Shown: positions 20,553 to 25,295 of the stretch, piece after piece
Position numbering within the stretch: position 1 is the stretch's first letter
How the letters are laid out: each line of letters starts with the position of its first letter
Source: Roseibium alexandrii DFL-11
Lineage (GTDB): Bacteria > Pseudomonadota > Alphaproteobacteria > Rhizobiales > Stappiaceae
Assembly (NCBI RefSeq): GCF_000158095.2
Contig: NZ_CM011002.1
Location: 1,503,228-1,567,227 of the forward strand
DNA: 64,000 bases
Reading direction: 5' to 3'
Made by a program: the position numbers and the translations under genes
Notes under the pieces: model-generated
Seen by the model: the letters and a program-made list of their open reading frames with translations, nothing else
The model's database searches: none
Told to the model about the DNA's origin: nothing

Positions 20553-24047
<3,495 letters not shown>

Positions 24048-24296
24048 GGCGGCATACTCAATGGCTTGCGCGAATCGTCGCTTCAAAGTGAAACGCCTTG
24101 AGCGCGTTTCGTCCAGCCACCAGCGCAGTTGTCACCGCTGTTCTTTGAAGGCTGAGAAGTTCTCTGCCAGACCATGTTTTTCATGCGTCTTGGCAGTTGC
24201 CACCTCTAGCCCACCGCACCTCAAATCAGGCATCGATCTGAGGGCATGCCACCCGGCTGCCACGTGCCGGACCGCAATTCGGGGATACGCCGCAGA

Positions 24297-24395
24297 TCAG
24301 CCAGCGGAGAGAATGACGTCACCCCACACAGCCAGGGTCGCGCAAAAGGAAACAAGGGATGCAAAAGCTGCGCAGTCACGAGCGAAATAAAACAT
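24297..24395 (-). CDS. Predicted SOS-induced small membrane protein (SidA-like)
   Basis: A 32-codon gene starting at the ATG at 24395 with a strong GGAGG five bases upstream. The peptide begins MFYFARDCAAF, then has a hydrophobic stretch (about residues 9-28, 'AFASLVSFCATLAVWGDVIL') and ends SAG. It could span the inner membrane once. Thirty-seven bases upstream of the start is a perfect alphaproteobacterial LexA box. Size, single membrane span and LexA control match SidA of Caulobacter, a 29-residue SOS-induced division inhibitor acting on FtsW/FtsN. The position directly upstream of dnaE may be shared, but I recall that only from memory. Function here is inferred; expression and homology should be tested. 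Confidence 0.65.
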   Translation of the reverse strand: MFYFARDCAAFASLVSFCATLAVWGDVILSAG

Positions 24396-24431
24396 ACCAC
24401 CCTCCAACATCTTGTTCGATAATTGGAGAAT

Positions 24432-24446
24432 GTTCCATTTATGTTC
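24432..24446 (-). promoter_or_regulatory. LexA binding site (alphaproteobacterial SOS box)
   Basis: An exact GTTC-N7-GTTC direct repeat (GTTC at 24432 and 24443), equivalent to GAAC-N7-GAAC on the minus strand. This is the known LexA motif of alphaproteobacteria. It lies 37 bp upstream of the 32-codon mini-gene. It is the only such box I found in the intergenic regions of the window. Confidence 0.75.
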
Positions 24447-24578
24447 TCTTTGCAAGCCTTTTTTGTTCTCCTTGATTTGATTTGTATAAAACCCGCAGAA
24501 ATCTTTGTGTTTTTGCTTTGTTCCAACCCGCCCCAAAAAGCGACATCGTCAAAAACCGGAACGCGGAGGCTCATAGGA
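24447..24578. other. Remainder of the dnaE-lolD gap
   Basis: AT-rich DNA between the end of lolD and the LexA box. It probably carries the promoter elements of the SOS mini-gene; further GTTC tetramers occur but not with the 7-base spacing. The stretch 24048-24296 between the mini-gene and dnaE shows no gene. Confidence 0.4.
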
Positions 24579-25295
24579 TTAGCGGGGTTTTACCAGACCG
24601 TCGGCCAGCGTGATGGCGCGGTCCATGCGTCCGGCAAGTTCAAGATTGTGGGTGGCAAAGAGCGTCGCAACCCCCGAGGCCCGGACCAGCGCGGACAGCG
24701 CATCGAAGACATAGTTCGCCGTGTTTGGATCAAGATTGCCCGTCGGTTCGTCCAGAAGAAGAATACGCGGCGCATTGGCAACCGCGCGGGCCACCGCAAC
24801 CCGCTGCTGTTCACCGCCGGAAAGCTCAGACGGACGGTGGCTCCCGCGATCGGCAAGACGCATATAGGCAAGCAGCTCATCGGCGCGGTCGGCCGCCACT
24901 TTTTTCGGTAGCCCCCGGATCATCTGGGGCATCATGATGTTCTCCTGCGCGGTGAACTCCGGCAGAAGATGGTGAAACTGGTAGACAAAGCCGATGTCGT
25001 TGCGCCGGATCGCAGTCCGCTCATCATCCGACAAATCCGTGCAGTTGACACCGCCAAGATGGACATCGCCGCCATCGGGTTGCTCCAAGAGCCCCGCAAT
25101 ATGCAAAAGCGTCGATTTACCGGTTCCGGATGGGGCAACGAGCGCCACCATTTCACCGGCTTCAATGCGCAGGTTCGCACCATTTAACACATGAAGCTTG
25201 TGGTCGCCTTCATCATACGCCCGGGAAATGCCGGACAGTTCGATGGCAGCCGGTTGGAGGCCGGGAGCCCGGCGCGGATCTACAGCCTGGTTCAT
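24579..25295 (-). CDS. lolD: Lipoprotein-releasing system ATP-binding protein LolD
   Basis: A 238-aa ABC ATPase from the ATG at 25295 ([10 protein letters not shown]), ten bases after the lolC stop. Walker A '[13 protein letters not shown]', Q-loop '[21 protein letters not shown]', signature '[17 protein letters not shown]', Walker B '[12 protein letters not shown]' and H-loop 'FATHNLELA' are all present. The '[10 protein letters not shown]' Q-loop is typical of the MacB/LolD group. With the adjacent permease it extracts outer-membrane lipoproteins from the inner membrane and hands them to LolA. The pair is coupled. Confidence 0.95.

Follow-up and report, generated by a model that had tools for sequence, protein, structure and literature searches.

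A conserved 32-residue membrane peptide gene with a predicted LexA box upstream of dnaE in Roseibium alexandrii, a very probable relative of SidA

What is the 32-codon open reading frame (ORF) that separates a lolD-like gene from dnaE in Roseibium alexandrii DFL-11, and does it belong with SidA, the 29-residue SOS-induced inner-membrane division inhibitor of Caulobacter that interacts with FtsW and FtsN (PMC4211646, in excerpt)? A preliminary description of the 64,000 nt stretch analysed here (hereafter the window; contig NZ_CM011002.1) had pointed out this ORF from the letters alone and likened it to SidA. Genome comparison confirms that the observation is real and supports the SidA reading. 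With good confidence, we take the window gene to be the Roseibium member of an overlooked, widespread SidA-type family, that is, a LexA-repressed gene for a 32-residue inner-membrane peptide that would arrest division via FtsW, FtsI and FtsN.

At the locus itself (Table 1), the mini-gene and its GGAGG motif proved to be as first described, and purine-rich sites akin to GGAGG precede the ATG in the other loci of the genus too. The LexA box claimed upstream is indeed a perfect match to the pattern, but the spacing of 37 bp given for it did not stand, the gap between box and ATG being 36 nt. The position between lolD and dnaE also held: the downstream gene exceeds the cut-off of its dnaE model, the upstream one is lolD-like, with LolD as its best model below cut-off, and both neighbours are kept in relatives' loci. 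The window dnaE is 86% identical to that of Roseibium aggregatum PHM038. The single membrane span that had been proposed agrees with AlphaFold, which predicts for this very short peptide one helix over residues 2-31 (mean pLDDT 90.6), and the R. aggregatum copy has a hydrophobic stretch per a 17-residue hydropathy criterion. Pfam returned nothing over cut-off for six peptides, Rfam no family in 23900-24700, and the plasmid collection no match to the window peptide.

Table 1. Features at the dnaE-upstream locus (positions in the window)
Feature	Position	Strand	Remarks
SidA-like membrane peptide ORF, 32 codons and stop	24297..24395	minus	ATG 24395-24393, TGA 24299-24297; translation MFYFARDCAAFASLVSFCATLAVWGDVILSAG
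Ribosome-binding site GGAGG	24401..24405	minus	5 nt before ATG; read from sequence
Putative -10 element CATTCT	24427..24432	minus	its C doubles as the final base of the box; spacer to TTGCAA 17 nt; inferred from alignments
LexA (SOS) box GAACATAAATGGAAC, predicted	24432..24446	minus	perfect GAAC-N7-GAAC, read towards gene
Putative -35 element TTGCAA	24450..24455	minus	3 nt upstream of box; TTGC kept in genus alignment
dnaE, DNA polymerase III alpha subunit	20553..24047	minus	downstream neighbour; NF004226 1475 bits, cut-off 1002
lolD-like ABC transporter ATPase gene	24579..25295	minus	upstream neighbour; best model TIGR02211 LolD, 246 bits, below cut-off 307.75

Conservation within the genus argues for a true gene. 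Searching 41 genomes with the window peptide, we found it in all 24 other Roseibium genomes (E 2.2e-8 or better), and an ATG-started ORF of exactly 32 codons is present in 25/25 genomes of the genus, the window's own included. The box starts at -51 to -61 and is perfect in 22/25, with one mismatch in the other three (L006, L022 and L025). Lack of conservation of peptide or box in relatives, which according to the preliminary description would have spoken against its reading, was looked for, and 25/25 genomes keep both. Among the 25 distinct coding sequences, pN/pS is 0.245 in the peptide frame, the lowest of all six frames, and pN is below pS in 300/300 sequence pairs; variable columns at codon positions 1, 2 and 3 amount to 19, 12 and 30 of 32. 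The other two forward frames yield 1.46 and 1.81 and the reverse frames 1.45, 0.38 and 4.05, the 0.38 frame being interrupted by stops in many pairs. It is amino acids, not nucleotides, that are conserved in this ORF. Comparison of genomes thus establishes the gene, the selection on it, its place, its box and, as detailed below, its relation to SidA.

The box pattern was rejected as evidence by itself, with five sites in the window against 2.39 expected (13/100 shuffles reach five) and 192 sites genome-wide against 267 for the reversed control. It is because of the genus-wide conservation, not of the pattern alone, that ORF and box are regarded as more than chance. The organism's own lexA is preceded by two such boxes in matching orientation, some 70-115 nt ahead of the HTH domain.

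Around the box, the genus alignment keeps a motif close to GAACAAAAAGnGnTTGCAAnnnGAAC-N7-GAACAT, and TTGAC-like letters are found in other lineages at about the same offset as TTGCAA. In 52 other-lineage loci, chosen for a perfect box, the commonest letters before it are T, T, G and A at -9, -8, -7 and -4 (60, 50, 42 and 67%, respectively); those after it are A, T and A (94, 65 and 56%), followed two bases on by T (62%). Since such letters are shared by the genus and other-lineage alignments, the promoter is likely TTGAC(A) and (C)ATAnT, 17 nt apart, and LexA would sit over the spacer. A strict sigma-70 consensus scan of 24000-24640 called no promoter. Further upstream on the minus strand, another GAAC half site (24465-24468) lies 22 bp, or two helical turns, from the box and does not vary across the genus alignment; 77 bp from the box, a GAACAAAGCAAAAAC-like element (24509-24523) departs from a LexA box by at most one mismatch in 20/25 genus genomes.

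The relation to SidA was assessed against the curated model NF033228 (cut-off 35 bits). Three of three Caulobacteraceae ORFs pass it (Caulobacter L084 and L089 with 55.9 and 60.2 bits, Phenylobacterium L065 with 58.0 bits), and all three sit upstream of dnaE, as the window ORF does. Their boxes are perfect in L065 and have one mismatch in L084; in L089 the nearest site, with one mismatch, begins just 28 nt ahead of the ATG. The window peptide returned 0 families at E up to 10, and four other non-Caulobacteraceae peptides gave no match to the model either. The window peptide is therefore, as judged by its sequence, a divergent SidA-type peptide outside NCBI's narrow SidA model.

Its N-terminal half nevertheless aligns without gaps with Caulobacteraceae SidA (M-x3-A-R-[DE]-x2-A-x2-S-x3-F), and hhalign of 17 Roseibium against 3 Caulobacteraceae peptides reports 92.3% probability (E 5.6e-7) over 20 columns, the first 20 residues. 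Profiles built with whole groups held out, the groups not being fully independent, gave 41/43 held-out peptides a higher score than any of the 521 null hydrophobic ORFs: 3/3 from Caulobacteraceae, 17/17 from Roseibium, 8/9 from other Hyphomicrobiales, 9/10 from the remaining lineages and 4/4 from loci found by sequence. Scores range from 22.0 to 28.3 bits for Caulobacteraceae SidA (null maximum 9.8) and from 21.5 to 35.1 bits for the 17 Roseibium peptides (null maximum 9.7). Homology of the window peptide to Caulobacteraceae SidA is thus above background for the wider family as delimited here. A Roseibium-only model is weaker: of the three Caulobacteraceae SidA, two outscore every null ORF and one falls behind a single null ORF, and several distant peptides (e.g. 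L096, L100, L112, L116) do not stand out from the null.

Altogether, the window gene and SidA of Caulobacter are alike in their place upstream of dnaE, LexA-type box, single hydrophobic span and the register of A-R-[DE]-x2-A-x2-S-x3-F, with dnaE downstream on the same strand in the window, the genus and Caulobacteraceae. They differ in length (32 residues against 29) and in the C-terminal half, which contains W-G-D-V in the window peptide and has its Trp at 24 in Roseibium and at 19 in Caulobacteraceae. Site, box type, gapless N-terminal alignment and held-out scores all speak for the likeness first proposed, and the peptide is very probably a relative of SidA.

Direct searches beyond the genus extend the picture. 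Among the six matches listed for the window peptide, four loci were fetched and two (L026 and L029) lie upstream of dnaE; of eight loci fetched for matches to the SidA model, two (L112 and L116) do so, and the remaining fetched loci are not upstream of dnaE. Boxes are perfect in L026, L112 and L116, and L029 has one-mismatch boxes.

Another survey started from 80 dnaE loci of named alphaproteobacteria, 77 of them with at least 400 bases upstream, and asked for a box and, beginning 25-95 nt from the box start, a hydrophobic ORF of 22-45 residues with a ribosome-site-like motif. Perfect box and membrane mini-ORF occur together in 21/77 loci, or 26/77 with one mismatch allowed; controls (perfect / one mismatch) gave 0 / 1 on the opposite strand, 0 / 0 in 20 rounds of dinucleotide shuffling and 0 / 0 at the far end of the loci. 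The combination is seen in Roseibium, Aureimonas, Bradyrhizobium, Neorhizobium, Ahrensia, Ancylobacter, Devosia, Rhodobiaceae and the PS1 clade, as well as in Caulobacter, Phenylobacterium, Maricaulis, Hellea, Robiginitomaculum, Aquisalinus and three unplaced records (L041, L046, L102). It was not found in the Mesorhizobium, Xanthobacter, Bartonella and Hyphomicrobium (L111) loci, nor in the Rhodobacteraceae and Rhodospirillales records with enough upstream sequence.

NF033228 reaches its cut-off in 0/289 genomes of the class and in 1/14 control genomes, presumably Caulobacter vibrioides. Relatives in the order, which the preliminary description had suggested seeking, did emerge: a 24-row family alignment gives matches at E <=0.01 in 144/297 order genomes and 55/117 genera, a few of them probably by chance. 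We inspected 84 order loci (27 from the top list and 57 hand-chosen); dnaE follows on the same strand in 71/84, with 56 perfect boxes, seven with one mismatch and eight loci with none within one mismatch. The other 13 comprise two beside lolD (L168, L189), six extra copies in one genus (g292) and five weak matches (L184, L187, L193-L195), which are probably chance. Peptide lengths in the family are mostly 26-38 residues, and the distance to dnaE in the inspected loci goes from overlap to several hundred nt. Where the peptide stop comes close to or overlaps the estimated dnaE start (L121-L126, L191, L196, L204), the arrangement suggests that both genes share a transcript and that the SOS response may control the replicative polymerase as well.

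What is new, as far as sequence comparison reaches, is a family extending well beyond the curated SidA model. That it was missed in annotation may follow from the extreme shortness of the ORFs and from a curated model without match to the five non-Caulobacteraceae peptides. In the literature searched, which was not exhaustive, no SOS division inhibitor was found named for Hyphomicrobiales and no SidA beyond Caulobacter; the original SidA description (Modell 2011), outside that search, may mention conservation. A recognisable sidA-type gene in this order (examples being Bradyrhizobium, Neorhizobium, Devosia and Ancylobacter) provides a candidate list of very short genes, and the family variants are a natural set for mapping the way in which a peptide of this size might hold FtsW.

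Other SOS-induced division inhibitors, namely YneA (Bacillus), SosA (Staphylococcus), SulA (gamma-proteobacteria), ChiZ and DivS, are larger than SidA-type peptides, and SulA acts on FtsZ. We set them apart by description, as unrelated genes (PMC4211646, in excerpt), even if YneA resembles SidA in a reported interaction with FtsW (PMC13396833, in excerpt). DidA of Caulobacter likewise inhibits division, is small, crosses the membrane once and is produced upon DNA damage (PMC4211646, in excerpt), but it has 71 residues, is SOS-independent (DriD) and binds FtsN, which again sets it apart.

In Caulobacter, FtsW and FtsI mutations relieve the lethality of SidA (PMC4211646, in excerpt), and models from a recent study, whose confidence is stated there not to be high, place SidA at helix 7 of FtsW (PMC13396833). 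Carrying this system over to Roseibium, we infer LexA binding, SOS induction, membrane topology and an FtsW target for the window peptide. LexA on the box, which fills the -35/-10 spacer, would block the promoter; upon DNA damage, RecA-driven LexA cleavage would release a burst of peptide. The peptide would insert as one helix with its N-terminal Arg-Asp end inside and hold the septum-building FtsW/FtsI/FtsN complex inactive, delaying division until repair. Its partner might also be another protein of the divisome or the membrane.

The same box could instead serve dnaE: damage would then raise the level of replicative polymerase, with the ORF reduced to a leader or coupling peptide that does nothing by itself. 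Such an arrangement would suit the lineages in which no more than about 22 nt separate the peptide stop from the dnaE start, or the two overlap (e.g. L121-L126, L191, L196, L204; start extrapolated from the dnaE alignment), and the gap between peptide and dnaE in the window, where only one weak terminator-like site (24105-24093) compares with an average of 0.8 in shuffles of the region. We nonetheless regard it as unlikely, given that amino acids rather than nucleotides are conserved, that the distance to dnaE is so variable, that the peptides lack the single-residue runs typical of attenuator leaders, and that in Caulobacter the SidA gene by itself inhibits division (PMC4211646, in excerpt). 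Just as improbable, in our estimate, is a LexA-controlled family peptide with a target other than FtsW (membrane potential or another envelope protein), as is reported for DinQ of E. coli (PMC3567139). Divergence of the C-terminal half from lineage to lineage would allow for different partners, and some genomes hold extra copies away from dnaE; set against this are the N-terminal half, place and promoter held in common with SidA, which interacts with FtsW and FtsN (PMC4211646, in excerpt). A chance ORF beside a chance box, for which the lack of enrichment of the pattern in window and genome might plead, has next to no probability left and is already refuted by the conservation data, because fixed length, coding-type selection, box and position are kept in 25/25 genus genomes and the arrangement is recovered across the order.

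Going beyond the division-arresting SidA-type peptide preferred here, we can speculate, quite tentatively and with more doubt than belief, that SidA, rather than being peculiar to Caulobacter, is an ancient alphaproteobacterial checkpoint gene fixed between lolD and dnaE. One LexA promoter would there serve both purposes in turn, giving a peptide that arrests division and, through transcription reading on, additional replicative polymerase; the extra copies of some lineages, in prophage-like surroundings, would look as if phages had acquired the peptide for stopping division of their hosts.

Those extra SidA-like peptides away from dnaE (L170, L173, L175, L177, L179 and L180) all belong to genus g292 of family f200. 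Genes near them include one for Erf-like ssDNA annealing (L177), an SSB gene (L179), and a phage-type regulator together with a gene that matches a RusA-like PHROG (L175); these neighbours suggest prophage-like surroundings for some of the copies. One paralogue searched against a phage collection gave no match. The dnaE-adjacent copies of the same genus (L171, L172, L174, L176 and L178) are without a box within one mismatch; the promoter that they keep, CTTG...GAACAAAAC...ATACATAAT-like, may represent a LexA operator in degenerate form.
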